Assembly: GCF_000179555.1 (NCBI RefSeq)
Contig: NZ_AECZ01000017.1
Span: 1-32,768 of the forward strand
Direction: 5' to 3'
Length of the DNA stretch: 32,768 bases
Source of the DNA: Solidesulfovibrio fructosivorans JJ]
Lineage (GTDB): Bacteria; Desulfobacterota; Desulfovibrionia; Desulfovibrionales; Desulfovibrionaceae
The notes under the pieces are model-generated. The model was not told the origin of the DNA, made no database searches, and worked only from the letters and a program-made list of their open reading frames with translations. Position numbers and translations under genes: made by a program. Shown here piece after piece: positions 5,922 through 20,124 of this stretch. The stretch's first letter is position 1, and each line of letters begins with the position of its first letter.

Positions 5922-5944
5922 TCACGCTTCACAAAAAAGCGTGA
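5922..5944 (+). promoter_or_regulatory. Leader stem-loop
   Basis: TCACGCTT (5922-5929) pairs with AAGCGTGA (5937-5944) around a seven-base loop, 86 bases before the MoeA-like gene. No U-tract follows, so it is not a simple terminator. Confidence 0.4.
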
Positions 5945-6030
5945 CACAAGGCTCCTAACCGCCATTCGCCGCAATACAACAAGGCCGGCCACCGCCCGAA
6001 TCGGCCGCGTCTGACCCGGGAGAACAATTC

Positions 6031-7053
6031 ATGCGCAGCATTCCCGTCGAAATGGCCCAGGGCATGGTCCTTTGCCACGACATCACCCGCATCGTGCCCG
6101 GTGAAGGCAAGGGCCCGGCCTTCCGCAAAGGCCACATCATCGCCCCCGAGGACATCCCGGTCCTTTTGCGCCTGGGCAAGGAACACATTTACGTCTGGGA
6201 TCTGGCCGAGGGGCTGGTCCACGAGGACGACGCGGCCGGCCGCATCGCCCGGGCCATCGCCGGCGAGGGCATCACCTTCACCCAACCCTGCGAGGGCCGC
6301 ATCAACCTGCTGGCCGACCGGCGGGGGCTGCTCAAGATCAACGTGGACGCGCTTAGGCGGTGCAATTCCATCGACGAGGTGACCATCGCCACCATGCACG
6401 GCGATGCCGTGGTTTCCGAGGGGCAGATGCTGGCCGGCACCCGGGTGGTGCCGCTGGTCGTGGCCGCCGAGAAGCTCGACGCGGTGGAGAAGGTCACGGC
6501 CGAGACCGGCCCGCTGGTCATGGTGCGGCCGTTTAGGCCCCTTCGCGTGGGCGTGGTCACCACCGGCGGCGAGGTCTACCACGGCCGCATCAAGGACAAG
6601 TTCGGACCGGTTTTGCGCCGCAAGTTCGACGACCTCGGCTGCTCGGTCATCCGGCAGGTCATCGTGCCCGACGACAGGGACATGACCGTGCGCGCCATCC
6701 GCCAGCTCCTGGCCGACGGCGCGGAGATGATCGCGGTCACGGGCGGCATGTCCGTCGACCCCGACGACCTGTCCCCGTCGTCGATCCGGGCCGCCGGCGG
6801 CCAAGTCGTCACCTACGGCTCGCCCACCTTTCCCGGAGCGATGTTCATGCTGGCCTACATCGGCGACGTGCCCGTGGTGGGGTTGCCCGGGTGCGTCATG
6901 TACCACAAGGCCAGCATTTTCGATCTGGCGGTACCGCGGCTGGTGGCCGGCGAAAAGCTGACCAAGGCCGATATCGTGGAATTTGGCCATGGGGGCCTGT
7001 GCGCCATGTGCCCCGAATGCCGCTATCCCCTTTGCGGGTTCGGCAAGAGTTGA
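6031..7053 (+). CDS. MoeA-like molybdopterin-binding protein with cysteine-rich tail
   Basis: 340 residues. The C-terminal half is a MoCF/MogA-type molybdopterin-binding domain: LRVGVVTTGGEVYHG (171-185), VTGGMSVDPDD (236-246), and PVVGLPGCVMYH (281-292). MoeA inserts molybdate into adenylylated molybdopterin; this shorter class accompanies Mo hydroxylase genes. It lacks full MoeA length (about 400 residues) and its N-terminal domains are reduced. A distinctive tail, GHGGLCAMCPECRYPLCGFGK, holds C324, C327, C330 and C335, spaced to bind zinc or an Fe-S cluster. GGGAG eight bases before the ATG fixes the start. It is the first gene downstream of the large control region and precedes mop by 137 bases, so supply or insertion of cofactor into Mop is the likely role. 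Confidence 0.85.
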   Translation: MRSIPVEMAQGMVLCHDITRIVPGEGKGPAFRKGHIIAPEDIPVLLRLGKEHIYVWDLAEGLVHEDDAAGRIARAIAGEGITFTQPCEGRINLLADRRGLLKINVDALRRCNSIDEVTIATMHGDAVVSEGQMLAGTRVVPLVVAAEKLDAVEKVTAETGPLVMVRPFRPLRVGVVTTGGEVYHGRIKDKFGPVLRRKFDDLGCSVIRQVIVPDDRDMTVRAIRQLLADGAEMIAVTGGMSVDPDDLSPSSIRAAGGQVVTYGSPTFPGAMFMLAYIGDVPVVGLPGCVMYHKASIFDLAVPRLVAGEKLTKADIVEFGHGGLCAMCPECRYPLCGFGKS

Positions 7054-7190
7054 CGGAAAAAGCGGCCCAAGCCGTCCCTTCCGGCACAACACGCGCAAGC
7101 GCGGCATTCGGCCTGTGCGGCACGCGCTCCCGCAGACGGCGTGCGTATTGGCGGAAACGGTAATCCTCTAACCCGAGCACGGAGAAACGC

Positions 7191-9941
7191 ATGGAAATTG
7201 CCAAAAAAATGGAAAAGATCTGGGTCGTGAACGGCATTGAGCACAAGCTCATTGTCGATCCCGATGCCTTCCTGTCCGAAGTGCTGCGCGAGCAAATGCA
7301 TCTGGTCGGCACCAAGGTCGGTTGCGCCAAGGGTCAGTGCGGCGCCTGCTCCGTCATCCTCGACGGCAAGGTCGTGCGCGCCTGCATCACCAAAGCCCGC
7401 CGCATCGAGGACTACGCCAACATCACCACCATTGAAGGCCTGGGCACCCCCCAGAACCTGCACCCCCTGCAGGTTGCCTGGGTGGCCAACGGCGCCGCCC
7501 AGTGCGGTTTCTGCTCGCCCGGTTTCATCATGTCCGCCAAGGGCCTGCTGGACCAGAATCCCAAGCCCACCCGCGAGGAAGTGCGCGATTGGTTCCAGAA
7601 GCACAAGAACGTGTGCCGCTGCACCGGCTACATCCCGCTGGTCGACTCCGTCATGGACGCCGCCAAGGTGCTGCGCGGCGAGATGACCCTCGACATCAAC
7701 CACAACTTCCCGGCTGACGGCAACATCTTCAACTCCCGCGCCCCGCGTCCCTCCGGCGTGGCCAAGGTCACCGGCCAGTGGGCCTTCGGCGACGACCAGA
7801 AGCTCCAGCTGCCCGCCGACACCCTGCACCTGGCCATCGTCGAAGCCCGCGTGTCCCACGCCAACATCAAGGGCATCGACGTTTCCGAGGCCTTGAAGGT
7901 CGAAGGCGTCCACAGCGTCATCACCGCCAAGGACATCAAGGGCAAGAACCGCATCACCGGCCTGATCACCTTCCCCACCAACAAGGGTGACGGTTGGGAT
8001 CGTCCCATCCTGTGCGACGAGAAGGTCTTCCAGTACGGCGACGCCATCGCCCTGGTCGCCGCCACCTCCGAAAAGATCGCCCGCGAGGCCGCCGAGCTGG
8101 TCAAGGTCGATCTGGAAGTCCTGCCGGCCTACATGAATGCCCCCGCCGCCATGGCCGAGGACGCCATCGAGATCCACCCCGGCACCCCGAACACCTACTA
8201 CAAGCAGGGCCTGGTCAAGGGCGACGATCCCGAGCCCTTCTTCAACAGCGCGGACTGCGTGGTTGCCGAGGGCAGCTACTACACCCAGCGCCAGCCGCAC
8301 CTGCCCATCGAGCCCGACGTCGGCTTCGCCATGTACGACGAGGACGGCATTCTGCGCATTTACTCCAAGTCCATCGGCCTGTACCTGCACCTGTACATGA
8401 TCGCCCCCGGCCTTGGCGTCGAGCCGGACAAGATCGCGCTCATCCAGCTGCCCACCGGCGGCACCTTCGGCTACAAGTTCAGCCCGACCATGGAAGCCCT
8501 CGTCGGCGCCGCCACCATGGCCACCGGCCGTCCCTGCCACCTGCACTACAACTACGCCCAGCAGCAGTACTACACCGGCAAGCGCTCCCCGTTCTGGACC
8601 ACCGGCAAGGTTGCCGCCGACAAGAAGACCGGCAAGATCAAGGGCACCCAGCACGAGTGGATCGTCGACCACGGTCCCTACTCCGAGTTCGGCGACCTGC
8701 TGACCCTGCGCGGCGCCCAGTACTTCATGGCCGGCTACGGCATCCCGAACATGCGCGCCGTTGGTCACTGCGTGTGCACCAACCACGGTTGGGGTTCGGC
8801 CTTCCGCGGCTACGGTTCGCCGGAAATCATGTTCCCCTCCGAGGTTCTGCTGGACGAGCTGGCCCTCAAGGGCGGCTGGGATCCGCTGGAACTGCGCTAC
8901 GTCAACTGCTACCGCCCCGGCGACACCACCCCGACCGGTCAGGTGCCCGATTCCTTCATGTACCCGGAGATGATCGACATCCTCCGTCCGAAGTACAAGG
9001 AGGCCCTGGCCAACGCGAAGCGGCATTCCTCTGACACCCTGAAAAAGGGCGTCGGCGTGGCCTTCGGCATCTACGGCGCCGGCCTGGACGGCCCGGACAG
9101 CGCCGGTGCCGATGTCGAGCTCAACGCCGACGGCACCATCACCATCTTCAACACCTGGCAGGACCATGGCCAGGGTTCCGACCTCGGCACCCTGTGCTTC
9201 GCCCATGAAGCTCTCAGGCCCCTCGGCATCCCGGCCTCCAAGCTGAAGATCGTCCTGAACGACACGAGCAAGTGCCCGAACTCCGGCCCGGCCGGCGGTT
9301 CCCGCTCCAACGTGCTCGTCGGCAACGCCATCATCAACGGCTGCAAGCAGCTCGTCGAGGCCATGCGCAAGCCCGACGGCACCTTCCGCACCTACGACGA
9401 GATGGTCAAGGACGGCCTCAAGACCAAGTACAACGGCACCTGGACCCAGCCGGCCAACGATTGCGATCCGGACACCGGCCAGGGCAACCCGTTCGCCAAC
9501 TACATGTACGGCCTGTTCATGGCCGAAGTGACCGTGGACACCACCACCGGCAAGACCCAGGTCGACAAGATGACCCTGGTGGAAGACATCGGCACCCTGA
9601 CCAACCGTCAGACCGTCGACGGCCAGAACTGGGGCGGCTTGGCCCAGGGCGTCGGCCTGGCGCTGACCGAGGACTTCGAGGACATCAAGAAGCACTCCTC
9701 CCTGGCCGGAGCCGGCGTGCCCTACATCAAGGACATCCCGGACGTCATGGAGCTGATCTACGTCGACTCGCCGCGTGAGCACGGTCCGTTCGGCGGTTCC
9801 GGCGTCGGCGAAGTGCCGCTGTGCGGACCGCACCCGGCCATCATCAACGCCATCGCCAATGCCACCGGCGGCGCCTTCGTCCGTCACCTTCCGGCCTACC
9901 CCGAAAAGGTCCTGGCCGCCATCAAGGAGCTTGGCAAGTAA
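7191..9941 (+). CDS. mop: Molybdenum aldehyde oxidoreductase (xanthine oxidase family)
   Basis: 916 residues, matching D. gigas Mop (907) along its whole length. It oxidises aldehydes to carboxylic acids at a molybdopterin cytosine dinucleotide site and passes electrons through two [2Fe-2S] clusters. Cluster ligands: C45, C50, C53, C65 (plant-ferredoxin-like domain) and C105, C108, C142, C144 (helical domain). The large domain keeps GGTFGYKFSP, WGSAFRGYG, NSGPAGGSR and the catalytic glutamate in GASGVGE-like FGGSGVGEVPL near the end. No FAD domain is present, as in D. gigas. GGAG six bases before ATG 7191 supports this start; ATG 7209 would match the D. gigas N-terminus but has no ribosome site. 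The codons look optimised (almost only AAG for Lys, frequent GGT/CGT), suggesting high expression. Confidence 0.97.
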   Translation: MEIAKKMEKIWVVNGIEHKLIVDPDAFLSEVLREQMHLVGTKVGCAKGQCGACSVILDGKVVRACITKARRIEDYANITTIEGLGTPQNLHPLQVAWVANGAAQCGFCSPGFIMSAKGLLDQNPKPTREEVRDWFQKHKNVCRCTGYIPLVDSVMDAAKVLRGEMTLDINHNFPADGNIFNSRAPRPSGVAKVTGQWAFGDDQKLQLPADTLHLAIVEARVSHANIKGIDVSEALKVEGVHSVITAKDIKGKNRITGLITFPTNKGDGWDRPILCDEKVFQYGDAIALVAATSEKIAREAAELVKVDLEVLPAYMNAPAAMAEDAIEIHPGTPNTYYKQGLVKGDDPEPFFNSADCVVAEGSYYTQRQPHLPIEPDVGFAMYDEDGILRIYSKSIGLYLHLYMIAPGLGVEPDKIALIQLPTGGTFGYKFSPTMEALVGAATMATGRPCHLHYNYAQQQYYTGKRSPFWTTGKVAADKKTGKIKGTQHEWIVDHGPYSEFGDLLTLRGAQYFMAGYGIPNMRAVGHCVCTNHGWGSAFRGYGSPEIMFPSEVLLDELALKGGWDPLELRYVNCYRPGDTTPTGQVPDSFMYPEMIDILRPKYKEALANAKRHSSDTLKKGVGVAFGIYGAGLDGPDSAGADVELNADGTITIFNTWQDHGQGSDLGTLCFAHEALRPLGIPASKLKIVLNDTSKCPNSGPAGGSRSNVLVGNAIINGCKQLVEAMRKPDGTFRTYDEMVKDGLKTKYNGTWTQPANDCDPDTGQGNPFANYMYGLFMAEVTVDTTTGKTQVDKMTLVEDIGTLTNRQTVDGQNWGGLAQGVGLALTEDFEDIKKHSSLAGAGVPYIKDIPDVMELIYVDSPREHGPFGGSGVGEVPLCGPHPAIINAIANATGGAFVRHLPAYPEKVLAAIKELGK

Positions 9942-9971
9942 CCTTCGGGGTTTTACACTCCGCTCAAAACG

Positions 9972-10009
9972 AACGACGGGGCGGGCGCAATGCGTCCGTC
10001 CCGTCGTTT
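9972..10009 (+). terminator. Terminator or attenuating hairpin after mop
   Basis: AACGACGGG (9972-9980) pairs with CCCGTCGTT (10000-10008); the inner bases continue the stem with G-U pairs around a CAATG loop, then GTTT. Only 30 bases after the mop stop, it could lower expression of the downstream genes relative to mop. Confidence 0.65.
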
Positions 10010-10025
10010 CCCACCGGAAGGCCCC

Positions 10026-12326
10026 ATGAATCAACAGGAACTGCGAGACACCGAGTACCGGTGCATTCAGGAAGAACAGCCGACTTGCCAGGCCGCCTGT
10101 CCCATCAGCGTGGATGTGCGGGGATTTATGGCCAAAATGGCGGCCGGCGATCTCTCGGGCGCACGCAAGATCCTTGATCGGACCATGCCGCTGCCCGGGG
10201 TGCTCGCCCGTCTGTGCGACCACCCGTGCGAGAACGCCTGTCTGCGCGCGACGCTTGGCGGAGCCCTGACCGTAGGCGCTCTGGAGCGGGCCTGCGTCCT
10301 GGCCACATCGGCCGGGGCCAAGCCCATGTGCATGCCCTCCAAGGGCAAGACCGTGGCCGCGCTCGGCGGCGACCTCAGCTCCCTGACCCTGGCCTGGGAC
10401 CTGGCCAAAAAGGGCTTCCGCGTCACCGTTTACGCCGCCGCGGACAAAGCCGGCGGCAAACTCAACGAAATTTCCCCCGACATGCTGCCGTCCGACGTCC
10501 TGGCCGAGGCCCTGGACATGCTCGGCCGCATGGGCGTCGCCGTCAAGACCGGCCAGACGTTGGACGCCGCGCGCCTCGAGGCCCTCGCCGCCGAATGCGA
10601 CGCCGTCTATGTCGAATGCGCCGGCCGCGACCTGTGCGGCATCTCCCGGGCCGACGCCGATGTCGTCACCCTGCAGGGGCCCCGGCCGAACGTCTTTTGC
10701 GGCGGTTGGCCGCGCCCCGACGGCTCCCGGTCCATCATTTCCCTGGTCACCGACGGCCGCCGGGCGGCCATGTCCATCGACCGCTTCATCTCCGGCGCCA
10801 GCCTGACCACCAGCCGGGAAAAAGAAGGCGTCACCACCACCCGGACCTACACCAACCTCAAGGGTGTGCCCGCCGTGGCCCGCGTCGAACCGGCCGATCC
10901 GGTCGCCGGCTTCGCCCCGGAAGACGCCAAGACGGAGGCCGCTCGCTGCATGCAGTGCGACTGCATGGAATGCGTCAAGGTCTGCGAATACCTCAAGCAC
11001 TACAAGGGCTACCCCAAACTCTACGCCCGACAGATCTACAACAACCTTTCCATTGTCCTCGGCAACCACTACCTCAACCGCATGATCGACTCCTGCACCC
11101 TGTGCGGGCTGTGCACCGAGGTCTGTCCCGAGGATTTCTCCATGGCCGAACTGTGCCTCCATTCGCGCCGGGACATGGTCAAACGCGGCAAAATGCCGCC
11201 CTCGGCCCACGAGTTCGCCCTGGAGGACATGGCCTTCTCCAACGGCCCGGACTGCGCCCTCGTCCGCACGGAGCCCGGCCAGGACGCCTGCGCCCACCTG
11301 TTTTTCCCGGGCTGCCAGCTGGCCGGCGAACCCGACGGCCGCATCCCCGAAGCCTATGCCTTCTTGCGGCAAAAGCTCTCCGGCGGCGTGGGACTGGCGC
11401 TTGGCTGCTGCGGCGCTCCGGCGCTTTGGGCCGGACGGGATCCGCTGTTCGAGGAAGTCGTGGTCGCCTTCAAGGCCCAGTGGGAAAAGCTCGGCAAGCC
11501 TCGCCTGATCACCGCCTGCTCCTCCTGCCTGAGCGTTTTCCAACAGGCCGCGCCCGAGATCCCGGCCGTCTCGCTGTGGCAGGTCATGGAAAGCGAGACC
11601 GGACTGCCCGAAACGGCCGGATTTTCCCCGGCCGCGCCGGTGGCCGTCCACGATTCCTGCACCTCGCGCCATAACGAGCCGCTCCAGCGGGCCGTGCGCG
11701 CCCTGCTCGCCAAACGCGGCGTGACCTTCGAGGAATTGCCCCTTTCGGGACGCTATACCGAATGCTGCGGTTTCGGCGGACTGGCCGGCAATGCCCATCC
11801 GCAACTGGCCAAGGCCATCACCGAGCGCCGGGCCGCCGCCTCGGACAAGGACTTCCTCGCCACCTGCGCCATGTGCCGCGACCGGCTGTCCCACGTGGGC
11901 AAACGGGCCTACCACCTCCTCGACGTCCTCTTTCCCGGCCAGGACGCCGGCGACCCGGCCGCGCGGCCCGATCCCGGTTTTTCCATGCGCCACGAGACCC
12001 GGGCCCGCCTGCGCCGCCATATGCTGACCACGGTCTGGAACGAAACCGTCGACGCCAAGGCCCCGATCGGACCGGACTTCGTGGTCAGCCCCGAGGTGCG
12101 CGCCCGCATGGAGGCCCGCCATATCCTCGACGACGACGTGAAACGGACCCTGGCCCATGCCGAAACCACCGGCCGCAAATTCCTCGACCGGGAAACCGGC
12201 CATTTCCTGGCCAGCTTCACGCCGCACCGCGTCACCTACTGGGTGGAATACGTGATGGAAGGCGATACCGCCCGGGTCTTCACCGCCTACAGCCACCGCA
12301 TGAACGTGGATAATGTCGGCAAGTAG
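10026..12326 (+). CDS. Dicluster/CCG-domain protein with decayed pyridine-nucleotide oxidoreductase domain
   Basis: 766 residues in several parts. Residues 10-90: glutamate-synthase-beta/DPYD-type helical Fe-S domain (C21, C25, C64, C68, C72). Residues 108-260: a flavoprotein-like fold that has lost the FAD-binding GxGxxG (here GGDLSS, 114-119), has Gly-Gly-Trp (226-228) where these enzymes have the GD of the second FAD motif, and lacks the NADPH subdomain. Residues 308-367: a ferredoxin region with CxxCxCxxCxxxC (C308-C320) and CxxCxxCxxxCP (C357-C367). Residues 425-635: two HdrD/LldE-type CCG domains (C461-C462-G with C498/C501, and C580-C581-G with C614/C617). A C-terminal domain of about 95 residues is unassigned. 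It follows the NCBI family named pyridine nucleotide-disulfide oxidoreductase/dicluster-binding protein. Likely electron partner of Mop. GGAAGG before ATG 10026 sets the start. Confidence 0.85.
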   Translation: MNQQELRDTEYRCIQEEQPTCQAACPISVDVRGFMAKMAAGDLSGARKILDRTMPLPGVLARLCDHPCENACLRATLGGALTVGALERACVLATSAGAKPMCMPSKGKTVAALGGDLSSLTLAWDLAKKGFRVTVYAAADKAGGKLNEISPDMLPSDVLAEALDMLGRMGVAVKTGQTLDAARLEALAAECDAVYVECAGRDLCGISRADADVVTLQGPRPNVFCGGWPRPDGSRSIISLVTDGRRAAMSIDRFISGASLTTSREKEGVTTTRTYTNLKGVPAVARVEPADPVAGFAPEDAKTEAARCMQCDCMECVKVCEYLKHYKGYPKLYARQIYNNLSIVLGNHYLNRMIDSCTLCGLCTEVCPEDFSMAELCLHSRRDMVKRGKMPPSAHEFALEDMAFSNGPDCALVRTEPGQDACAHLFFPGCQLAGEPDGRIPEAYAFLRQKLSGGVGLALGCCGAPALWAGRDPLFEEVVVAFKAQWEKLGKPRLITACSSCLSVFQQAAPEIPAVSLWQVMESETGLPETAGFSPAAPVAVHDSCTSRHNEPLQRAVRALLAKRGVTFEELPLSGRYTECCGFGGLAGNAHPQLAKAITERRAAASDKDFLATCAMCRDRLSHVGKRAYHLLDVLFPGQDAGDPAARPDPGFSMRHETRARLRRHMLTTVWNETVDAKAPIGPDFVVSPEVRARMEARHILDDDVKRTLAHAETTGRKFLDRETGHFLASFTPHRVTYWVEYVMEGDTARVFTAYSHRMNVDNVGK

Positions 12327-12337
12327 AAGAGAGGGAC

Positions 12338-12515: not shown

Positions 12516-12527
12516 GCTAGACACGCC

Positions 12528-12743
12528 ATGGCAGAATCGCTTGTTTACATGCCGCAGTCCGGCGACTGGACGTGCGCCGGATGCGGCGGTCCCTTGGAGC
12601 CCAAGGAGACCGACGTCACCTACCTTGAGGGCGGCTTCAACATCACGTTGCTCACCTGTCCCAAATGCAAGATGGCGTTGCTCCCGGAGTATGTGGCCGT
12701 GGGCAAGATGCTGGAAGTGGAGCAGTTGCTGGAGGACAAGTAG
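12528..12743 (+). CDS. Small double-CxxC protein (DVU_1557-like redox protein)
   Basis: 71 residues with C16-x-x-C19 and C44-x-x-C47, a zinc-ribbon or rubredoxin-like arrangement. By sequence and position it matches the family NCBI calls DVU_1557 family redox protein; metal and function are not known. The nearest ribosome site is GGAGG at 12510-12514, which belongs to the end of the repeat, 13 bases from the ATG, longer than usual. Its TAG overlaps the GTG of the next gene. It is the first of seven tightly packed genes, so it may be a small electron carrier or a metal-delivery helper for that unit. Confidence 0.8.
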   Translation: MAESLVYMPQSGDWTCAGCGGPLEPKETDVTYLEGGFNITLLTCPKCKMALLPEYVAVGKMLEVEQLLEDK

Positions 12744-13441
12744 TGCCGGGCTGCGTCGCGCCCTATGAGCGAGAGGATTTCCGCGAAGTCGCCGGCGGGA
12801 CGCTGCGCCCCGGCGGACTGGCCCTGACGAAACGGGCCCTTGCGGCCTGCCGGTTTTCCCCGGGGGCCAGGGTGCTGGATGTCGGCTGCGGCCCCGGCGC
12901 GAGCCTGACCCTTCTTGCCGAGGCGAAGCTGACCGCTTACGGCCTCGACGCCTCCTTCCTTTTCACGCATCAAGCCGGCCGCATCGCCCCCGTGGTTCAG
13001 GGACTGGGACAACACCTGCCCTTCCGGGAGAAAAGCCTGGACGGCGCGCTGTGCGAATGCGTGCTCTCGGCTTCGGGCGACGGCCCGGGCTGTCTGGCCG
13101 AGATCGCCCGGGTGCTGCGCCCGGGCGGGCTGCTCGTCGCCACCGACCTCTACCTGCGCCAGGGCAATCCCCTTGGCGAGGCCGGCGCGGGTTGCGCCGC
13201 CGGAGCCGTCACGCGCGAGGCCCTGGCCGTCATGTTCGGCGCGGCCGGATTCGCCCTGCGCCTCTTCGAGGACCACACCAAACTGCTGACCGAGCTGGCC
13301 TGCCGCCTGACCTTCGCCTTGGGCTCGGCGGCAAGCGTCGTTTCCATGCTGACCGGCCGTGATCCGGCCTGTGCCGGCGCCTCGGGGCCACGCCCCAGGT
13401 TCGGCTACTGCCTGTGCATCGCCGCCAAGGAGTCGTTATGA
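12743..13441 (+). CDS. SAM-dependent methyltransferase (DVU_1556/TrsM-like)
   Basis: 232 residues. Motif I is VLDVGCGPG (44-52), followed by YGLDAS, LPFREKSLDGALCECVLS and ARVLRPGGLLVATDLYL, a UbiE-like class I methyltransferase. The start is the GTG at 12743, overlapping the TAG of the previous gene (TAGTG) with GGAGG seven bases upstream; frames opening further upstream at 12665 run inside the neighbour and are rejected. A GAGAGCAAGAV-like stretch and several cysteines (C4, C36, C49) are seen. The gene always-next-to-TrsS arrangement in this family block suggests it methylates the product, substrate or partner of the radical SAM protein; that is inference. Confidence 0.85.
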   Translation: MPGCVAPYEREDFREVAGGTLRPGGLALTKRALAACRFSPGARVLDVGCGPGASLTLLAEAKLTAYGLDASFLFTHQAGRIAPVVQGLGQHLPFREKSLDGALCECVLSASGDGPGCLAEIARVLRPGGLLVATDLYLRQGNPLGEAGAGCAAGAVTREALAVMFGAAGFALRLFEDHTKLLTELACRLTFALGSAASVVSMLTGRDPACAGASGPRPRFGYCLCIAAKESL

Positions 13442-13878
13442 ACCCCACGCTTATGGAGATCATGCCCCTGGCCGCCAAGAACTATTGTTGCAGCCAGATT
13501 CTCGTGCTTTTGGCCCTGCGCGCCCAGGGGGTGGAGAACTGGCCCCTGGTGCGGGCCGCCGCCGGCATCTGCCACGGCATGGAATCGGGACTGACCTGCG
13601 GCATCCTGACCGGCGGCTGCCTGACTCTCGGCCTGTATGCCGGCCGGGGACGCGAGGAGGAGCTGCCCCATGAAAAAGCTGAACTCCTCATCACCGAATT
13701 CGTGGACTGGTTCCGCGAAAAGGCCACCGACATGTACGGCGACATCACCTGCCAGGCCATTCTGAGCGAAGGCAAGCCCGACGCCAGCCGTTGCGGCGGG
13801 CTCATGTCCGAGGCCTGGGACCAGATTATCACCATCCTGTCGGAAGCCGGCATCGATCCGTCCGAACCCAGGGAGTAA
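13438..13878 (+). CDS. C_GCAxxG_C_C family protein (DVU_1555-like)
   Basis: 146 residues, helical and cysteine-rich: C17-C18 (YCCSQ), C45, C54, C61, C105 and C119. The central GLTCGILTGGCLTLGLYAG (51-69) is the family's GCAxxG...C signature in variant form. Members are found beside redox enzymes and are thought to bind Fe-S or pass electrons or thiols; no biochemical role is settled. ATG 13438 overlaps the upstream TGA (ATGA) with AAGGAG just before it; an ATG at 13414 is in frame but lies within the neighbouring gene and lacks a site. Translation is therefore coupled to the methyltransferase. Confidence 0.88.
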   Translation: MNPTLMEIMPLAAKNYCCSQILVLLALRAQGVENWPLVRAAAGICHGMESGLTCGILTGGCLTLGLYAGRGREEELPHEKAELLITEFVDWFREKATDMYGDITCQAILSEGKPDASRCGGLMSEAWDQIITILSEAGIDPSEPRE

Positions 13879-13882
13879 AAAA

Positions 13883-15244
13883 GTGGCCGCGTCTTCCGGT
13901 TCGTATCCCACCATGAGCCTGTGCCCGGTCTGCCTGCGCCGGGTGCCCGCCCGGCGCGAGGTCGACGGCGCGGACGGCTACGTGGTCAAGACCTGTCCCG
14001 AGCACGGCGAATTCCGCACCCGGTTCTGGCATGGCCCGCCGGCCATGGTCGGCTGGAACCGGCCCAAGGTCCCGGGCAACCCACCGCCGATCCTCACCGA
14101 ATCGCGCCTGGGCTGCCCGCATGACTGCGGCCTGTGCCCGGAGCACGGCCAGCACACCTGCACGGCGCTTTTCGAGATCACCGCCCGGTGCAACCTTTCC
14201 TGCCCGGTCTGCTTCGCCAGCGCCGGCAATACGCCGCCGCCCGATCCCGAGGTCCCGGCCCTTTCCGAACGCTTCGCCCGCATCTTCGAGGCCACCGGGC
14301 CGGTCAACGTCCAGCTTTCCGGCGGCGAACCCACGGTGCGCAACGACCTGCCCGAGGTGGTGGCGGCCTGCCGCAAGGCCGGCTTTTCCTTTGTGCAGCT
14401 CAACACCAACGGTCTGGCCCTGGCCGCCGATCCGGGACTGGCCGGACGTCTGGCCGATGCCGGCCTCGTTTCGGTTTTTCTCCAGTTCGACGGCAACGAC
14501 GACGCCTGCCGGGTGCTTCGCGGGGGACCGCTTTACGAAACGAAACTGGCGGCCATCGAGGCCTGCGTGGGGGCGAACATCGGCGTGGTTCTGGTCCCGA
14601 CCGTGGCCCCGGGCGTAAACGACGGCCAGCTCGGCGACATCGTGCGCCTGGCCCGGTCCATGGCCCCGGGCGTGCGCGGCGTCCATTTCCAGCCCGTCAG
14701 CTCCTTTGGCCGCTATCCCTGGGCCGCCGGCCCGGCTGCGCGCGTCACCCTGCCGGACCTCATGCGCGGCCTGGAAGATCAAACGGACGGCATGATCCGG
14801 GCCGAGCACTTCCATCCGCCGGGCTGCGAGCATTCGCTGTGCTCCTTTTCCCAGCCCTATTTCCTCGAGGGAGATGGCGGGCTACGGCCGGCCCCGACGT
14901 CTGGCCAATCCTGCTGCTCCCCGCCGCCCCCCATCGCCGCCGACGAAGGCGCGCGCCGCTCCCGGAATTTCGTGGCCCGCCAATGGGCCGCGCCGACCGA
15001 CGCCCCGAAAAAAGACGGCCCCATGGACGATTTCGACCGCTTCCTGGCCGATGCCGCCACGGCTAGGCGCTTCACCGTCTCGGCCATGGCCTTTCAGGAC
15101 GCCTGGACCCTCGACCTCGAACGCACGCGCGGCTGCTGCATCCACGTGGCCACGACCGACAACCGGCTCATTCCCTTTTGCCTCTACAACCTGACGGCGA
15201 CCGACGGCCGCACGCTCTACCGGGGGCATGACGGATGCGTTTAA
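13883..15244 (+). CDS. Tes-like radical SAM protein (TrsS family)
   Basis: 453 residues. An N-terminal rubredoxin-like knuckle (C14-x-x-C17, C38-PEHG) leads to C78-x3-C82-x-x-C85-PEH-x3-C93, then the radical SAM motif C103-x3-C107-x-x-C110, GGEP (147-150) and a TIM-barrel part. The C-terminal section has HFHPPGCEHSLCSF (C315, C320), a CC pair (344-345), RGCCIH (C418-C419) and IPFCLYN (C433). This order matches the archaeal tetraether synthase Tes (MJ0619) and the NCBI family radical SAM (seleno)protein TrsS, some of whose members carry selenocysteine. Here no in-frame TGA is seen; all positions are Cys. Several Fe-S clusters are expected. GTG 13883 is chosen for AGGGAG seven bases upstream; ATG 13913 is the alternative. 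Reaction unknown. Confidence 0.88.
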   Translation: MAASSGSYPTMSLCPVCLRRVPARREVDGADGYVVKTCPEHGEFRTRFWHGPPAMVGWNRPKVPGNPPPILTESRLGCPHDCGLCPEHGQHTCTALFEITARCNLSCPVCFASAGNTPPPDPEVPALSERFARIFEATGPVNVQLSGGEPTVRNDLPEVVAACRKAGFSFVQLNTNGLALAADPGLAGRLADAGLVSVFLQFDGNDDACRVLRGGPLYETKLAAIEACVGANIGVVLVPTVAPGVNDGQLGDIVRLARSMAPGVRGVHFQPVSSFGRYPWAAGPAARVTLPDLMRGLEDQTDGMIRAEHFHPPGCEHSLCSFSQPYFLEGDGGLRPAPTSGQSCCSPPPPIAADEGARRSRNFVARQWAAPTDAPKKDGPMDDFDRFLADAATARRFTVSAMAFQDAWTLDLERTRGCCIHVATTDNRLIPFCLYNLTATDGRTLYRGHDGCV

Positions 15245-16296
15245 GCCCTGTTGACGGACTTGTCGCCGCCGGGCTCGGCCGGCCGGACCTCCCTCCGACG
15301 CCGCGGGCCCTCGACGCCTGGCGGCTGGCCGCACTTTCCCGGGCCGTGCGCCATGCCGCCGCCGCCCCCTTCTACCGGGAACGGCTGGGCAATCTGCCGC
15401 CGGATTTCCCCCGGACGCTGGCGGAATTCGAGACCCTGCCCTTCACCCTGCCCTCCGATCTGACCGAGGCCCATGCCCGGTTTCTGGCCGTGTCCCAGGA
15501 CGACGTGGCCCGCATGGTCACGCTTTCCACCTCCGGCACCACCGGCGCGCCCAAGCGCGTGGCCTTCACGGCCGGGGACATCGAGGACATCCGCCGCTTC
15601 TTCCACATCGGCATCCGGACCCTGGTCGAACCCGGGGATACGGTGCTCATCCTCATGCCCGGGGTGCGTCCGGACAGCATCGGCGACCTGCTGTGCCAGA
15701 TATTGCCGCGACTGGGCGCGCAAGGGGTCCTCGGCGACCCCACGGGCGATCCGGCCGCGCTTGCCGCCGACCTGCGCCGGCTGCGCCCGCAGTCGCTTGT
15801 GGCCGCGCCGTCCCAGATCCGCCGGGCCATCGACGACCCGGACGTCCGCGCCGCGGCAAAGGACTGCCTGCGCACCATCCTGCTTTCGGCCGAGGCGTTG
15901 CCGGACGGCTGGAAGGCGCTTTTGGCCGAACGCTTCGGGGCCACGGTCTTCGACCACTACGGCGCGACCGAGATGGGCTACGGCGGCGGCGTCGAGTGCG
16001 AGGCGTTTGACGGCTACCATCTGCGCGAAACCGACATCTATTTCGAGGTGGTCCACATGACCACCGGAGAGCCCCTGCCCGAGGGGGAAGTGGGCGAGGT
16101 GGTCTTCACCACGCTGACGACGCGCGGCATGCCCTTCGTGCGCTACCGCACCGGCGACGCCGCCGCCATGCTTCCCGGCCCCTGCCCCTGCGGCAGCAAA
16201 CTGCGTCGCCTGGGGCCCATCCTCGGGCGCATCGTCCACGGGCCAAACGGCCCGCAACTGACCAATCCGGCCAAGGGAGCGGCCAACCGCCCATGA
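15235..16296 (+). CDS. Truncated AMP-dependent ligase, phenylacetate-CoA ligase-like (DVU_1553-like)
   Basis: 353 residues with the adenylation core of the PaaK group: P-loop STSGTTGAPKR (98-108), FDHYGATEMGYGG (239-251), and YRTGD (304-308), then PCPCGS as in PaaK. The usual proteins are about 430 residues; this one stops about 20 residues after the GRI hinge, so the C-terminal lid with the catalytic lysine and the thioester-forming conformation is missing. The family is conserved in this short form, so it is not a recent break. It could make an acyl-adenylate only, or hand it to another protein. ATG 15235 overlaps the radical SAM gene by ten bases. Confidence 0.85.
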   Translation: MRLSPVDGLVAAGLGRPDLPPTPRALDAWRLAALSRAVRHAAAAPFYRERLGNLPPDFPRTLAEFETLPFTLPSDLTEAHARFLAVSQDDVARMVTLSTSGTTGAPKRVAFTAGDIEDIRRFFHIGIRTLVEPGDTVLILMPGVRPDSIGDLLCQILPRLGAQGVLGDPTGDPAALAADLRRLRPQSLVAAPSQIRRAIDDPDVRAAAKDCLRTILLSAEALPDGWKALLAERFGATVFDHYGATEMGYGGGVECEAFDGYHLRETDIYFEVVHMTTGEPLPEGEVGEVVFTTLTTRGMPFVRYRTGDAAAMLPGPCPCGSKLRRLGPILGRIVHGPNGPQLTNPAKGAANRP

Positions 16297-17333
16297 ACGA
16301 ACTCATCGACATCATCAATACCACCCTGGCCGAAGGCCGCTCCGTGGTCGCGGCCACCATCGTCACAAGCGTTGGCTCCACCCCGCGCACCGCCGGCTCC
16401 AAGATGCTCATCTTTCCCGACGACAAGATCGCCGGCACCGTGGGCGGCGGGCTGGCCGAAGGACAGGTCATGGCCGCCGGGGCCGAGGTGCTCGCCTCGG
16501 GCGTCTCCCGGCTCATGGATTTCGACATGACCGGCCAGGCGTCGAAAGGCGCGGACCTCATCTGCGGCGGCAAGATGCGCGTTTTTCTCGAACGCCTGGC
16601 CCCGGACGCGGCCACCAAGCGCCTTTTCGCCGCCCTGGCCGATACCTTGGCCAAAAGCGAACGCGGCCTCGTGGTCACGCCCCTGGAGCCCGCTTCCGGC
16701 GGCGACGCGGGCCGCTGCCTGCTGCTCCCGGAGGGCGACATCGTGGGCAGCGATCCCGGCCCGGCGGTTTTGCAGGCCGCCCGCGAGAGGGCCCGCGACA
16801 TCCTGGCCCCGGTGGTCATGGAAGCCGACGGCCGGCGCTTTTTCCTGGAGCCGGCCCTGGCCCAAAGTCCGCTTGTCATCTGCGGCGGCGGGCACGTCAG
16901 CCGGCCCACGGGGCAGATCGCGGCCATGGTGGGCTTCCGGGTGACGGTGCTGGACGATCGGCCGGAATTCGCCGCGCCCGAGCGTTTTCCCTTTGCCGCC
17001 GAGACCGCCGTGATCGACCCGGCCAAGGGCTGGCTCACCGGACGACGCGTCAGCGAAAACGATTCCATCGTCATCGTCACGCGCGGCCACGCCCACGACT
17101 ACGACGCGCTGGCCGAGGCGCTTGGCACGCCGGCCGGCTACATCGGCATGATCGGCTCGAGCTCCAAGCGCGACGCCATCTACGACCGGCTCCTTGCCGC
17201 CGGATTCACCCGCGACGACATCGCCCGGGTCAAAAGCCCCATCGGCCTTCCCATCGAGGCCGAAACCCCCGAGGAAATCGCGGTGAGCATCGTGGCCGAA
17301 CTGATCGCCTGCCGCGCCGCCAGAAGGCCATGA
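16293..17333 (+). CDS. xdhC: XdhC/CoxI-family molybdoenzyme maturation protein
   Basis: 346 residues. The N-terminal XdhC/CoxI domain has VTSVGSTPRTAGSKML (25-39), GTVGGGLAEGQV (48-59) and the conserved cysteine in LICGGKMRVFLE (C91). A linker leads to the Rossmann domain with ICGGGHVSRPTGQIA (196-210), VLDDRPEFA and YIGMIGSSSKR. XdhC binds molybdenum cofactor and aids its sulfuration and insertion into xanthine-dehydrogenase-family enzymes; Mop is the obvious client. The Rossmann motif begins C-G-G-G rather than the common G-A-G-H. ATG 16293 overlaps the ligase stop (ATGA), and its own stop overlaps the next gene, so expression is coupled. Confidence 0.9.
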   Translation: MNELIDIINTTLAEGRSVVAATIVTSVGSTPRTAGSKMLIFPDDKIAGTVGGGLAEGQVMAAGAEVLASGVSRLMDFDMTGQASKGADLICGGKMRVFLERLAPDAATKRLFAALADTLAKSERGLVVTPLEPASGGDAGRCLLLPEGDIVGSDPGPAVLQAARERARDILAPVVMEADGRRFFLEPALAQSPLVICGGGHVSRPTGQIAAMVGFRVTVLDDRPEFAAPERFPFAAETAVIDPAKGWLTGRRVSENDSIVIVTRGHAHDYDALAEALGTPAGYIGMIGSSSKRDAIYDRLLAAGFTRDDIARVKSPIGLPIEAETPEEIAVSIVAELIACRAARRP

Positions 17334-18553
17334 GCACCGACACCACCTTTCCCGACGCCTGCGCCTGCATCCTGGCCGGAGGGCTCTCCTCGCGCATGGG
17401 CGCGGGGTTCAAGCCCCTGCTGACCTTGGACGGCCAAAGCGCCCTGGCGCTTCTGGCCGACACCTTCCGCCGGGCGGGCATCACGAATATCGTGGTGGCC
17501 ACCGGCCACCGGGGCGTGGAGGTCACGGCCGAGGCGACACGCATCGGCATACGCAGCGCATACAATCCGGAATACGAAACCGGCATGTTTTCCACCGTCA
17601 AAACGGCCCTTGCCGCCGTGCCGCAAACCTGCCGCCGCATCTGCCTGACTCCGGTGGACATCCCCCTTTTCCGGCCGGCCACCGTCGCCCGGCTGGTGGC
17701 GCGCCTTGGCGAGGCCGACGCCCCGCCGGTCCTCTATCCGGTTTTTTCCGGCGAACGCGGCCATCCGCCCTGCCTGGACGCAAGCGTCATCCCCTCGGTC
17801 ATGGCCCATGTCGGCAACGGCGGCCTGCGACAGGCCCTGGCGCCCTTCGCCTTCGAGGAAATCGCGGTTCCCGACGCCAACATCCTGGCCGACATGGACA
17901 CCCCCGAGGATTACGCCATGCTGCGTTCCCTGGCCGAACGCCGGGACATCCCCACTCCGGCCGAGGCCGAAGCGCTTCTCGCTATCGAGAAGGTCCCGCC
18001 CCAAGGCCTGGCCCACGCCCGGGGCGTGGCCGCCGTGGCCGAAGCCCTCGGCCGGGCGCTCAATGCCGCCGGGGCGAACCTCGACATTCCCCTCATCAAG
18101 GCCTCGGCCCTGCTCCACGACGTGGCCAAGGGGCGGCCGCATCACGAAGCCGCCGGCGGCAGGCTGCTCGCCTCCCTCGGCTTCGACGCCGCCGCCGCCA
18201 TCGTCGCCGCCCACCGCGACATCGACCTGCCGCCGGACGCGCCCGTCACCGAGCGCGAAGTCGTCTACATCGCCGACAAGTTCGTCTTCGGCCGCTGGCT
18301 GGTGCCGGTCGCCGGACGGTTCCGGCAAAAGTTCGACCTTTTTGCCGGCGATGCCGCCGCCCAGGCCGCCATCAGCCGCCGCCGCGAACACGCTTTGCGC
18401 GTGCTCGCCCGCATCGAAGCCGCCGTGGGGCAGCGCGCCGAGACGGTCATCGCCGCCGCCGGCTTCCGTCCCGGTCCGCCCCCGGCCCAGGCCTATGCCG
18501 CCGCGGCCGCCCGCCACACGAGCCACAAGTCCCCCGAAGCCCCAAGGCATTGA
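17330..18553 (+). CDS. MocA-like nucleotidyltransferase fused to an HD domain (DVU_1551-like)
   Basis: 407 residues. Residues 10-195 form a MobA/MocA-type NTP transferase: LAGGLSSRMGAGFKPLL (15-31), TPVDIPLF (107-114) and GERGHPPCL (141-149), the last as in MocA, which adds CMP to molybdopterin to make the cytosine dinucleotide that D. gigas Mop uses. Residues about 222-375 form an HD phosphohydrolase domain with H229, H263-D264, H271/H272, H295 and D316. The two activities suggest cofactor formation plus nucleotide or pyrophosphate hydrolysis, or turnover of the cofactor. ATG 17330 overlaps the xdhC stop (ATGA). An Ala-rich tail follows the HD domain. It ends the coupled gene run. Confidence 0.88.
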   Translation: MSTDTTFPDACACILAGGLSSRMGAGFKPLLTLDGQSALALLADTFRRAGITNIVVATGHRGVEVTAEATRIGIRSAYNPEYETGMFSTVKTALAAVPQTCRRICLTPVDIPLFRPATVARLVARLGEADAPPVLYPVFSGERGHPPCLDASVIPSVMAHVGNGGLRQALAPFAFEEIAVPDANILADMDTPEDYAMLRSLAERRDIPTPAEAEALLAIEKVPPQGLAHARGVAAVAEALGRALNAAGANLDIPLIKASALLHDVAKGRPHHEAAGGRLLASLGFDAAAAIVAAHRDIDLPPDAPVTEREVVYIADKFVFGRWLVPVAGRFRQKFDLFAGDAAAQAAISRRREHALRVLARIEAAVGQRAETVIAAAGFRPGPPPAQAYAAAAARHTSHKSPEAPRH

Positions 18554-18630
18554 CGCAAGCGGCCAAAAGCTGAGATTATCCGAAAACCGGCTGCATGAAT
18601 CGCGCGCGGCCTGGAAAGGGGATTATCGCC

Positions 18631-20124
18631 ATGGACGCCGTAGGTTTCGACGTGCTGCGCCGTGCCGTGGCCAGTTGCGGACTGGCTTCGGATACCGGAC
18701 GCGGCTTGGACGTGCTGCTTTCGCGTTTTCTCGACGCCCTGACCGATCTGCCGGGGCTGCGCCATGCCGCCGTGGTGCTGGCCGATGCCGAAGGCCGGCC
18801 GACCATCCGGGCCAGGCTCGGCGTGCCCGATGTGGGCATGGTGCTGACCGCCGCCTTGGAACGGGGGCCGGGAGCCCGCACGGCCCGGGTCCTTCGCGCC
18901 GGGGCCGCGCCGGTCGTGGCCGAAGCCGACGGCAAGGTGGCCGCGACGCGCGAGGAGGCGGCCATGCTGGCCGCGCCCATCCCGGTCGCAGCCGGGCGGG
19001 AGGAAGACGGGCCCCAGGGATGGGTTTTCACCGACGGGCTGCTTGGCCGGGACGCCCCGCTTGGCGACGACCTGCGCCTGTTGACGCTTCTCGCCGGCAT
19101 CCTCGGCCGCATGGCCGACATGGCCGCCATGGCCGCCGGCCGCACCCTGGACATGGCCCGGGAAGTGGCCTTTTTGCGTTCCAAGGTGTCGTTGCGCCAC
19201 CAGCATGTGTTTTCGAGCGGCACGAGCCAGCTCCTGGAGGCTTTGCACGGCGCGGTGGCCCGGGCCGCCGTGTCCAAGGCCCCCATTGTCCTTCGCGGCG
19301 AGCCCGGCTCGGGACGCGGCGTCCTGGCCCGCCTCATTCACGAGCTTTCCCCCCGGGCCGTGCATCCTTTTGCGGTCGTAAGCGCCGCCGGGTCGGACAA
19401 GCTCATGGAACGCCTCTTCGGCTGCGCCAGACCGCTCGGTCCCGCCGTCAAGCCCGCCGCGTCCGGTCCCGGCTTCCTCGAGGAAGCCGACGGCGGCACG
19501 CTGCTGATCCGGGATGCCCACCGCCTGCCGCCGGACGTGTGCGAACGGCTCGCCCGCTTTTGCGCGGCCGGGCGCATGGCCCGCCTGGGCGGGGCCCGCG
19601 AGCGTCGCGTGGACACGCGCCTTTTTTTCGCTGCTCCCCCTGGCGGCCTGAACCAGGAACTGGCCGCCGCCCTGTCCCCGGAAGTCATCGTCGTGCCGAG
19701 CCTGCGGGAACGCCGGGAAGACATCCCCGCCCTGCTCGACGACCTGCTGGCCCGGGAGACCTCCCGGGGCGGACGCCGCCTGACGCTGACGCCCAAGGCC
19801 CTCAAAGCCCTGGAAGCCTACGACTGGCCCGGCAACATCCGGGAAATGGAAGAACTCGTGGCCCGTCTGGCCGTGACCGCGCCCGAAGACCGCATCGACA
19901 TCGCCGACATCCCGCCCGAAATGCTGGCCGAAGGCGACCGGCCGCCAGTGCTGCCCGAGGACGCGGCCGAACTGCGCGACATGGAGCGCCAGCAGGTCCT
20001 AAACGCCCTGACGCGACACGGCTGGGTCCAGTCCCGCGCCGCCCGCGAACTCGGCCTCACCCTGCGCCAGATCGGCTACCGTATCCGCAAATACGGCCTC
20101 ACACGCGAAGAGGCGGATGTATAA
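18631..20124 (+). CDS. NifA-like AAA+ protein lacking sigma-54 activation motifs
   Basis: 497 residues: GAF-like sensor (about 25-165), AAA+ domain (about 195-415) and a C-terminal Fis-type helix-turn-helix nearly identical to NifA's (TRHGWVQSRAARELGLTLRQ, 461-480). The AAA+ domain is decayed: Walker A is GEPGSGRG (223-230) with Arg for the key Lys; Walker B reads GGTLLIRDAH (288-297), with Arg-Asp in place of Asp-Glu; and the GAFTGA loop is absent, replaced by LFGCARPLGPAVKPAAS (262-278). The arginine-rich RERREDIP region survives. It should bind DNA but not open sigma-54 promoters by the usual route. Start 18631 is chosen for AAGGGG upstream; ATG 18595 lacks a site. It may be a repressor, an anti-activator, or a sensor subunit mixed with an active partner. 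Confidence 0.88.
   Translation: MDAVGFDVLRRAVASCGLASDTGRGLDVLLSRFLDALTDLPGLRHAAVVLADAEGRPTIRARLGVPDVGMVLTAALERGPGARTARVLRAGAAPVVAEADGKVAATREEAAMLAAPIPVAAGREEDGPQGWVFTDGLLGRDAPLGDDLRLLTLLAGILGRMADMAAMAAGRTLDMAREVAFLRSKVSLRHQHVFSSGTSQLLEALHGAVARAAVSKAPIVLRGEPGSGRGVLARLIHELSPRAVHPFAVVSAAGSDKLMERLFGCARPLGPAVKPAASGPGFLEEADGGTLLIRDAHRLPPDVCERLARFCAAGRMARLGGARERRVDTRLFFAAPPGGLNQELAAALSPEVIVVPSLRERREDIPALLDDLLARETSRGGRRLTLTPKALKALEAYDWPGNIREMEELVARLAVTAPEDRIDIADIPPEMLAEGDRPPVLPEDAAELRDMERQQVLNALTRHGWVQSRAARELGLTLRQIGYRIRKYGLTREEADV

Follow-up and report, generated by a model that had tools for sequence, protein, structure and literature searches.

A TrsS-centred gene set that travels with the aldehyde oxidoreductase Mop and may form a carrier-protein pathway

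The window analysed here (the whole stretch of DNA, 32,768 nucleotides in length) raises the question of why a molybdopterin-dependent aldehyde oxidoreductase, Mop, is encoded beside a Tes-like radical SAM enzyme, a methyltransferase, a ligase and cysteine-rich proteins. A sequence-only reading of this DNA had proposed two alternatives for these proteins: an additional way of maturing Mop, or a pathway that draws on its chemistry. According to the available part of PMC10223205, research on the D. gigas Mop spans almost 40 years, yet for the genes that accompany the enzyme we came across no role in the literature. Searches on the DVU names, TrsS and the family names returned no functional study, which agrees with the earlier statement that no published function is known for the block. 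A search on the regulon of the aldehyde oxidoreductase gave no papers, and one on Tes and its relatives led to the Tes and D. gigas papers. The families of the block (TrsS, DVU_1551-1557 and Mop) are already curated in NCBIfam, where the TrsS neighbourhood is covered by NF045645, NF045646 and NF045663-NF045669; for the associated work (Haft and Tolstoy 2025, doi 10.1128/msystems.01417-24) we rely on a reference and one row of a table in PMC13188914. As far as we can tell, the comparison made here is new, and it resolves the locus into two modules. Module A comprises Mop together with the MoeA-like, XdhC and MocA-HD proteins, while module B is a TrsS-centred set of TrsS, a small DVU1557-like protein, the methyltransferase, the ligase, the dicluster/CCG protein and often a C_GCAxxG_C_C protein.

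Gene content and layout of the locus

The features of the locus are as follows.

6031..7053, + strand: MoeA-like molybdopterin-binding protein (PF00994, 85 bits); module A
7191..9941, + strand: Mop, molybdopterin-dependent aldehyde oxidoreductase (NF045668, 1565.3 bits, cut-off 1100); module A
9990..12326, + strand: dicluster/CCG electron-transfer protein (NF045663, 1022 bits, cut-off 530)
12528..12743, + strand: DVU1557-family small CxxC protein, 71 aa, last residues Glu-Asp-Lys, putative carrier (NF045645, 92 bits, cut-off 60; PF24292); module B
12743..13441, + strand: DVU1556-family SAM methyltransferase (NF045667, 211 bits, cut-off 155); module B
13414..13878, + strand: DVU1555-family C_GCAxxG_C_C protein (NF045669, 164 bits, cut-off 103); module B
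13883..15244, + strand: TrsS, Tes-like radical SAM enzyme (NF045646, 628.5 bits, cut-off 490); module B
15235..16296, + strand: DVU1553-family AMP-forming ligase, C-terminal domain lacking (NF045666, 400.6 bits, cut-off 300); module B
16293..17333, + strand: XdhC family protein (NF045664, 387 bits, cut-off 350); module A
17330..18553, + strand: MocA-like NTP transferase with HD domain (NF045665, 412 bits, cut-off 315); module A
18595..20124, + strand: sigma-54 activator; module membership unsupported

All nine proteins from Mop to MocA-HD exceed their curated NCBIfam cut-offs, far above chance, and in this the locus matches the TrsS/DVU_1551-1557 neighbourhood. This bears out the gene block proposed from the sequence, and the names DVU1551-DVU1557, which had been given for it, agree with the families matched. 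The PDB relatives of the window Mop are 1sij and 1dgj. The CxxC protein had been assigned to an ORF at 12439-12768, which is in the wrong frame; the true small protein is encoded at 12528-12743. The methyltransferase that follows probably starts at the GTG at 12743, where it would overlap the small-protein stop by one base, rather than at 12665; its NF045667 score was obtained with the longer ORF starting at 12665, in which the profile match begins near 12800.

Other assignments stood in part. The protein described as NifA-like is a sigma-54 activator, but its score against NifA is 187 bits where the cut-off is 529, and as tblastn gave only weak matches to it, in 2 of 18 Desulfo-type loci (L011 and L039), its membership of the module is unsupported. 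A sigma-54 promoter was rejected, since only 7 weak matches turned up where chance alone would give 15.6. The ligase is short in the window, as had been noted, but this is a trait of the lineage; many homologues are about 70-120 residues longer at the C-terminus, and the comparison of lengths rules out shortness as a general feature. Last, XdhC and MocA-HD do belong to the coupled block in the window, but they adjoin the TrsS genes in only 33/45 and 32/45 flanked loci, respectively.

TrsS and the small DVU1557-like protein

The description of TrsS as Tes-like holds for its predicted fold and its ligand residues, but not for family membership, as it scores 306.7 bits against the Tes family NF045702 (cut-off 450). 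The structure closest to the TrsS model is 7tol (TM 0.78 by query length, E 4.9e-41, 32% identity), which is Tes, or GDGT-MAS (PMC9433317), an enzyme that joins lipid chains, and the two appear to share a fold. When positions are mapped by hand, TrsS has the residues corresponding to the metal sites of Tes, that is, the ligands of the rubredoxin, N-terminal and radical SAM clusters and the labile Met of the C-terminal cluster. Across 27 sequences C14, C17, C38 and H41, C78, C82, C85 and H88, C103, C107 and C110, and M402 are invariant, and C320, C418 and C433 are candidate ligands of the C-terminal cluster. TrsS differs from Tes in that Tyr459 is replaced by Val in the window protein (a position again mapped by hand), this residue being other than Tyr in the TrsS-clade motifs listed and Tyr in the archaeal relatives listed; in that the His following the labile Met is Ala in the window protein by our own alignment; and in that 39 fewer residues separate the two blocks that could be aligned. 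Selenocysteine is a trait of some NF045646 members, and the window TrsS has no internal stop; among the TrsS matches listed the sole TGA (G835) is the terminal stop, and a selenocysteine there was rejected. Tes-like genes of four genomes (G026, G028, G030 and G040) group with Tes rather than TrsS in a FastTree tree with local support values only, and these genomes were excluded from the TrsS counts.

The C-terminus of the small protein is fixed. Lys is the last residue in 95/98 copies and Glu-Asp-Lys (EDK) the end of 82/91, counts that include about 30 close relatives (L040-L069) and so are not of independent sequences, whereas for nine other module proteins no single last residue occurs in more than 42% of copies. 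Codons, stops and next genes vary, which rules out a ribosome-binding site as the origin of the tail; in L132 and L133 the DNA past the stop resembles a terminator hairpin. Two of seven Mop-free copies (L095 and L096) extend two residues beyond the Lys. Conservation spans the whole domain, and most copies carry two CxxC motifs, the first of which is incomplete in L022, L033 and L086. AlphaFold predicts the protein poorly (pLDDT 66), and a PDB profile search returned only weak zinc-finger, LIM, ribosomal and designed-protein matches (best E 0.0067).

The small protein accompanies TrsS in 45/45 flanked Mop-clade loci and in 4/4 flanked Mop-free loci. These counts use a lenient local cut-off of 20 bits, 17 loci had served in training, and presence is partly by construction, since the local profiles were trained on at most 18 named loci and the window. 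The table of flanked loci excludes L040-L069, four duplicates, loci lacking a TrsS match and 27 loci outside the TrsS clade. The Mop-free loci give weak matches only (22-59 bits with the local profile), and the protein of one of them, L100, reaches 57 bits where the NF045645 cut-off is 60; a search of the available DNA of the tandem TrsS loci L076 and L134 found no small protein. The DVU1553-type ligase also tracks TrsS, exceeding its cut-off in 10/12 TrsS-clade genomes and in 0/30 others, nine of which have Mop, in a set of genomes that we selected ourselves. One genome (G628) has TrsS and the small protein and no ligase over the cut-off, and in another (G624) the ligase scores 275 bits, the cut-off being 300.

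LysW and ArgW, as described in the available part of PMC10433800, are small Cys-rich proteins with an invariant motif at the extreme C-terminus, and the DVU1557-like protein is likewise small and Cys-rich with a fixed C-terminal motif. The tails differ (EDWGE in LysW, EDK here), the partner of the small protein is, unlike that of LysW, an AMP-forming ligase, and searches of Pfam, NCBIfam and the PDB gave no LysW match. As such, the protein may act like LysW, yet is not classed as one. The fixed lysine end hints that the tail bears a group that is assembled or transported there. The presence of the small protein with TrsS in the flanked loci, its lysine end, the retention of this end when the protein is fused to the dicluster protein (five intact loci), the ligase that tracks TrsS and the precedent of LysW all support a carrier. 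We tentatively read module B as a LysW-like carrier pathway of its own, linked to Mop in the majority of genomes without being a maturase that Mop requires, a reading to which we give somewhat less than an even chance. The ligase would convert a carboxylate to an acyl-adenylate and transfer it to the C-terminal lysine of the DVU1557-like protein, the putative carrier; TrsS would alter the tethered group by means of a 5'-deoxyadenosyl radical and an auxiliary cluster, the one that makes a C-S bond in Tes, and the methyltransferase would modify it as well. The dicluster and C_GCAxxG_C_C proteins would carry electrons, and Mop would provide or use the acid/aldehyde partner. The sequences themselves show that the two modules are separable yet co-occur, that the C-terminus is fixed and that the Tes-type ligand residues are conserved; we infer the loading of the lysine, the order of the steps and the product. 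The comparison reduces the question to one measurement, the mass of this roughly 70-residue protein, taken from D. vulgaris or D. gigas. If it carries an adduct, a new carrier-protein chemistry would enter the aldehyde metabolism of sulfate reducers and anaerobic Bacillota; if it does not, docking or maturation remain.

It is doubtful, though worth serious consideration, that the small protein merely partners the dicluster protein and Mop as a redox or zinc-ribbon protein, with its tail as a docking site, and that TrsS and the ligase make an unrelated metabolite. NCBIfam names NF045645 a 'redox protein', two CxxC motifs are usual, and five intact loci encode a fusion of the small protein and the dicluster protein in which the tail stays at the extreme end, an arrangement that suits electron transfer; a fixed tail may also serve for docking. 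In G867, however, TrsS and the small protein lie on one contig, apart from Mop and the dicluster gene on another (G520 differs, having a copy of the small protein in each of two gene sets), and TrsS is accompanied a little more often by the small protein (45/45 flanked loci) than by Mop or the dicluster protein (43/45). Furthermore, the tail is lost in G120, a single case on a short contig, in which Mop is kept and TrsS was not found.

Co-occurrence and separability of TrsS and Mop

TrsS and Mop are tightly coupled, 166 of the 172 Mop genomes of the class having TrsS, and the Bacillota sample agrees. The counts, which come from 2x2 tables built from hand-transcribed lists of genomes that are samples and in many cases fragmented, are given below.

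Class set: both 166, Mop only 6, TrsS only 4, neither 71
Desulfobacterota sample (296 genomes, partly repeating those of the class set): both 26, Mop only 2, TrsS only 8, neither 260
Bacillota sample: both 21, Mop only 5, TrsS only 2, neither 370

The two phylum labels are inferred from the centre loci (Desulfoluna and Lachnospiraceae), and Fisher's test on such tables assumes independent genomes, which relatives are not. A class genome was taken as TrsS-positive at a best E <= 1e-60, which after removal of the four Tes-like genomes gives 170, with 167 over the cut-off. Contig ends account for some of the discordant cases: the Mop-positive, TrsS-negative genomes of the class include three (G009, G053 and G115) in which the contig with Mop breaks off at the module or within it, and the four with TrsS and without a full Mop include G170, where Mop is split over two contigs, G117, whose contig begins in the dicluster gene, and G010, which is fragmented.

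The sequence-only reading had asked whether the set occurs without mop and mop without the set, and both arrangements exist. In a sister TrsS clade TrsS is adjoined by the DVU1557-like protein, the methyltransferase and usually the ligase, and Mop, XdhC and MocA-HD are absent; among seven genomes of this clade, selected by us, a search for PF20256 (MoCoBD_2) gave no match in four (G372, G327, G353 and G293) and revealed xanthine-oxidase-family hydroxylases in G528, G366 and G389. In the other direction, the draft genome G016 (100% complete) has Mop, and TrsS was not found in it. Three further Mop copies are adjoined, among the tracked genes, by the MoeA-like gene only, one of them also by a sigma-54 regulator match.

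These cases bear directly on the proposal that module B is an additional Mop maturation system, in which the radical SAM enzyme, the methyltransferase and the ligase would alter the cofactor or the protein of Mop, and which we regard as unlikely. The tight co-occurrence and common operon favour it, as do the many loci in which XdhC or MocA-HD adjoins the TrsS set and the decay of the module in G107, where Mop is broken and no TrsS or ligase is left at the locus. Such a system would be expected to be absent where the genome has no Mo hydroxylase of this family, but the set is present in the four sister-clade genomes that lack a PF20256 match; Mop is kept in G016 and at the three loci with extra copies, although service in trans is possible for the latter. 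The D. gigas genome carries the set as well, yet the review of its Mop, in the part available, gives a well-resolved MCD cofactor at 1.28 A and describes no extra modification, which weakens the maturation idea even if a labile modification is possible. On the strength of the Mop-free TrsS clade, G016 and the D. gigas enzyme, an obligatory and dedicated Mop maturase is disfavoured, and of the two original proposals it is the coupled pathway that is favoured. The Mop-linked TrsS clade alone may have gained a maturation role.

Swinging-arm and precursor models

In lipoyl assembly, a lipoate ligase and LipA act on the lysine of a carrier. By analogy, the locus offers an adenylating ligase, a radical SAM enzyme with an auxiliary cluster and the lysine of the small protein, and one could imagine a lipoamide-like swinging arm in which the ligase would acylate this lysine, TrsS would add sulfur or join carbons, the methyltransferase would finish the group and the dicluster protein would reduce it, the arm then serving Mop and, in Mop-free genomes, other oxidoreductases. 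The sole direct hint of lipoyl chemistry is a lipoamide dehydrogenase gene that adjoins tandem TrsS in one genome (L134), and we judge this arm to be quite improbable. That the small protein is a RiPP-like precursor, with C-terminal residues modified by TrsS and its partners and released as a cofactor or metabolite, is very improbable, for although a small conserved protein with a fixed tail does adjoin a radical SAM enzyme and a methyltransferase, and the pearlins provide a precedent for chemistry at a carrier C-terminus (available part of PMC9303977), the families assigned to the module in the window include no protease, conservation extends over the entire domain, and some genomes encode the protein as a fusion with the dicluster enzyme.

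Gene order in the window

From MoeA-like to MocA-HD the genes of the window are co-directional, some adjacent pairs sharing a few bases.

Genes of the run, named by family searches of the predicted proteins, and the gene that follows it
6031-7053: MoeA-like protein
7191-9941: Mop (molybdopterin-dependent aldehyde oxidoreductase)
9990-12326: dicluster/CCG protein
12528-12743: DVU1557-family protein, 71 residues (the small protein)
end at 13441: DVU1556-family methyltransferase
13414-13878: DVU1555-family C_GCAxxG_C_C protein
13883-15244: TrsS (Tes-like radical SAM enzyme)
15235-16296: DVU1553-family ligase
16293-17333: XdhC
17330-18553: MocA-HD protein
18595-20124: sigma-54 activator, downstream of MocA-HD

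The sequence-only reading was right that a CxxC protein exists here, but its open frame, 12439-12768, is rejected as the wrong one in favor of 12528-12743. The ligase lacks a C-terminal part present in many relatives, and the sigma-54 activator gave weak tblastn matches in just 2 of 18 Desulfo-type loci. The nearest named locus found was that of Solidesulfovibrio alcoholivorans (TrsS identity 79%). Families of the TrsS/DVU_1551-1557 set were already curated in NCBIfam, and, as excerpted, a 2026 review citing Haft and Tolstoy 2025 includes TrsS (PMC13188914), while two papers name DVU1559 within the data tables excerpted from them. In the paper collection searched, DVU1551-DVU1559, TrsS, DUF7479 and related names led to no functional study of the set; Haft and Tolstoy 2025 may already note the fixed tail, or the loci lacking Mop, that are described below.

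Upstream of the Mop operon, the 1580-4352 region holds a sensor histidine kinase-like frame, as read from the sequence, and an NtrC-type sigma-54 response regulator; a local profile finds similar regulators in three other loci (L009, L011, L039). Between regulator and MoeA-like gene lies a second class I methyltransferase (4423-5292; 64 bits against the DVU1556 model, under its cut-off of 155), and at 20640-21509 a 289-aa frame with a GFDDTDT motif matched nothing in Pfam and NCBIfam searches.

Co-occurrence and separability of Mop and TrsS

Genomes with both genes, Mop only, TrsS only, or neither
Desulfovibrionia, 247 genomes: 166, 6, 4, 71 (Fisher p 2e-49)
Desulfobacterota, 296 genomes, over cut-off, overlapping the former sample in part: 26, 2, 8, 260 (p 4.5e-28)
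Bacillota, 398 genomes, over cut-off: 21, 5, 2, 370 (p 3.6e-28)

In the class sample, where Mop was called at E 1e-250 and TrsS by our own rule, Mop occurs in 172 genomes and TrsS in 170 (167 over cut-off). To the question raised by the sequence-only reading, whether the radical SAM set occurs without mop and mop without the set, the answer is that both cases exist (loci L095-L100 and L102; genome G016), co-occurrence being otherwise tight, at 166 of the 172 Mop genomes of the class. G016, whose 30-contig draft has a completeness rating of 100%, carries Mop alone. As for the other Mop-only genomes of the class, the Mop contigs of G009, G053 and G115 stop at or within the module, that of G120 is 9.5 kb, and in G107 Mop is broken and the module decayed. 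Four of the five Bacillota Mop-only genomes have a sub-cut-off TrsS-like match, inside the TrsS clade for G251, G624 and G867 and outside it for G635; the fifth, G759, has none at E 1e-60, its Mop contigs being short (6.0 and 7.7 kb). Of the Bacillota TrsS-only genomes, G628 shows an incomplete Mop scoring 953 bits, and in G908 the TrsS genes stand in tandem. G117 belongs to the Mop-linked type and its contig begins inside the dicluster gene, so the assembly may simply lack its Mop. Additional Mop copies (L087, L088, L089) have MoeA-like as their sole tracked neighbor, plus a sigma-54 regulator match in L089.

The seven Mop-free loci (from G372, G327, G528, G353, G366, G389 and G293) each hold TrsS and a methyltransferase, together with matches to the DVU1557-like protein, at 22-59 bits, and to the dicluster protein, the latter weak in L098 (42 bits) and L102 (36 bits); none of the seven has Mop, XdhC or MocA-HD. 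Ligase is present in six, the exception being L096, whose genome (G327) has an over-cut-off ligase on a different contig, and C_GCAxxG_C_C in two (L098, L102). A MoCoBD_2 domain search gave no match in G372, G327, G353, G293, G052 and G117, and 9, 5, 8 and 1 in G528, G366, G389 and G458. In a FastTree tree of 106 rows with local support values, the Mop-free loci and the tandem TrsS of G052 and G908 form a group of 11 (support 84), sister to the Mop-linked group, which has 65 members (98); the two groups make up a clade of 76 (99) distinct from Tes and its archaeal relatives. G867 has TrsS and the small protein on one contig and Mop with dicluster on another. The genes of G520 are likewise divided between two contigs: Mop and dicluster lie with a small protein, XdhC and MocA-HD on the first, whereas the second holds TrsS, ligase, methyltransferase and C_GCAxxG_C_C along with another small protein and a weak dicluster match. 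Given the Mop-free sets and these split layouts, the locus is made up of two modules.

Among loci with sufficient flanking DNA, scored at local thresholds (20 bits for the small protein), TrsS is accompanied in 45 Mop-clade loci by the small protein (45), Mop and dicluster (43 each), methyltransferase and ligase (42 each), C_GCAxxG_C_C (39), XdhC (33), MocA-HD (32) and MoeA-like (27), and in four Mop-free loci by small protein, dicluster and methyltransferase (4 each), ligase (3) and none of the others. A DVU1553-type ligase exceeds its cut-off in 10 of 12 TrsS-clade genomes (G628 and G624 fall under it, at 209 and 275 bits) versus none of 30 other genomes examined, nine of which carry Mop without a TrsS-clade gene; the ligase therefore tracks TrsS rather than Mop.

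Neighbor families were assigned by direct search on L100 and L076 proteins and elsewhere through blastp clustering. TRAP transporter and RACo-type activase genes lie near the Mop-free sets of L097, L099 and L100, and L097 and L100 also have a corrinoid protein there; these sets may represent an uncharacterised pathway for uptake and methyl transfer. HGD-D genes lie near TrsS in L096 and L076. Tandem TrsS genes with ligase, Mop being absent, occur in L134 (G908, 250-6253), adjoining lipoamide dehydrogenase and an MbdU-like protein, and in L076 (G052), adjoining the HGD-D gene.

An unlikely maturation role, judged from D. gigas

That the TrsS set serves as an extra maturation route for Mop, one of two options first proposed, appears unlikely. 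D. gigas (G189), whose Mop is identical to 1SIJ across the 206 residues compared, carries in a single run MoeA-like, Mop, dicluster, small protein, methyltransferase, C_GCAxxG_C_C, TrsS, ligase and XdhC, no MocA-HD being found in 20 kb of the locus. Yet PMC10223205, as excerpted, describes its aldehyde oxidoreductase (AOR) with MCD as cofactor, pterin rings and metal centres well defined at 1.28 A and no requirement for a sulfido ligand, and in those excerpts further modification goes unmentioned. A labile or transient modification of Mop may nonetheless occur.

TrsS and a candidate carrier protein

Tes (7tol) is the closest solved structure to TrsS by sequence (273 bits), and a predicted model (pLDDT 83.7, pTM 0.88) best matches 7tol and 7tom at 32-33% identity. 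When mapped by hand onto the Tes sites described in excerpts of PMC9433317, the counterparts of its rubredoxin, N-terminal-cluster and radical-SAM-cluster residues and of its labile Met are invariant in 27 sequences. At the position of Tes Tyr459, the TrsS-clade motifs listed carry a residue other than Tyr, whereas the archaeal relatives listed retain Tyr. Judged from these residues, the radical machinery of TrsS is Tes-like, but its substrate is probably something other than two lipid tails.

Among copies uncut by a locus end, the small protein terminates in Lys in 88 of 91 and in Glu-Asp-Lys in 82; in a larger locus set the final Lys is found in 95 of 98. None of nine other module proteins has so fixed an end by the same count, the nearest being Mop (Lys, 24/57) and MoeA-like (Lys, 13/31). 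Codon usage in the tail is mixed (GAG/GAA 61/32, GAC/GAT 48/40, AAA/AAG 50/45), all three stop codons follow (42, 31, 25), and among the tracked genes methyltransferase comes next in 78 of 98, the remainder having another or none; what is conserved is therefore the protein end, not a DNA signal. The three copies without the final Lys are those of the Mop-free L095 and L096, with two extra residues, and that of L073, a G120 locus with Mop in which no TrsS was found; this last copy has lost its tail.

In LysW/ArgW, as excerpts of PMC10433800 describe, Zn-binding Cys accompany a C-terminal motif whose final residue bears the intermediate. For pearlins, PMC9303977, as excerpted, describes carrier peptides whose C-terminus is the site of both loading and modification, a radical SAM enzyme and a methyltransferase being among the enzymes involved. 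By analogy with both, the terminal Lys of the DVU1557-like protein would carry an acyl group. Lipoyl assembly is a second analogy for such a carrier; the sole pointer to it comes from L134, where a lipoamide dehydrogenase gene, scoring 477 bits against a cut-off of 409, lies immediately upstream of the tandem TrsS. This is one instance, and the locus lacks the small protein. Dicluster protein and small-protein domain are joined in eight open frames, one a duplicate, and Glu-Asp-Lys ends five intact fused frames (L009, L010, L022, L033, L086) as well as that of the decayed locus L071.
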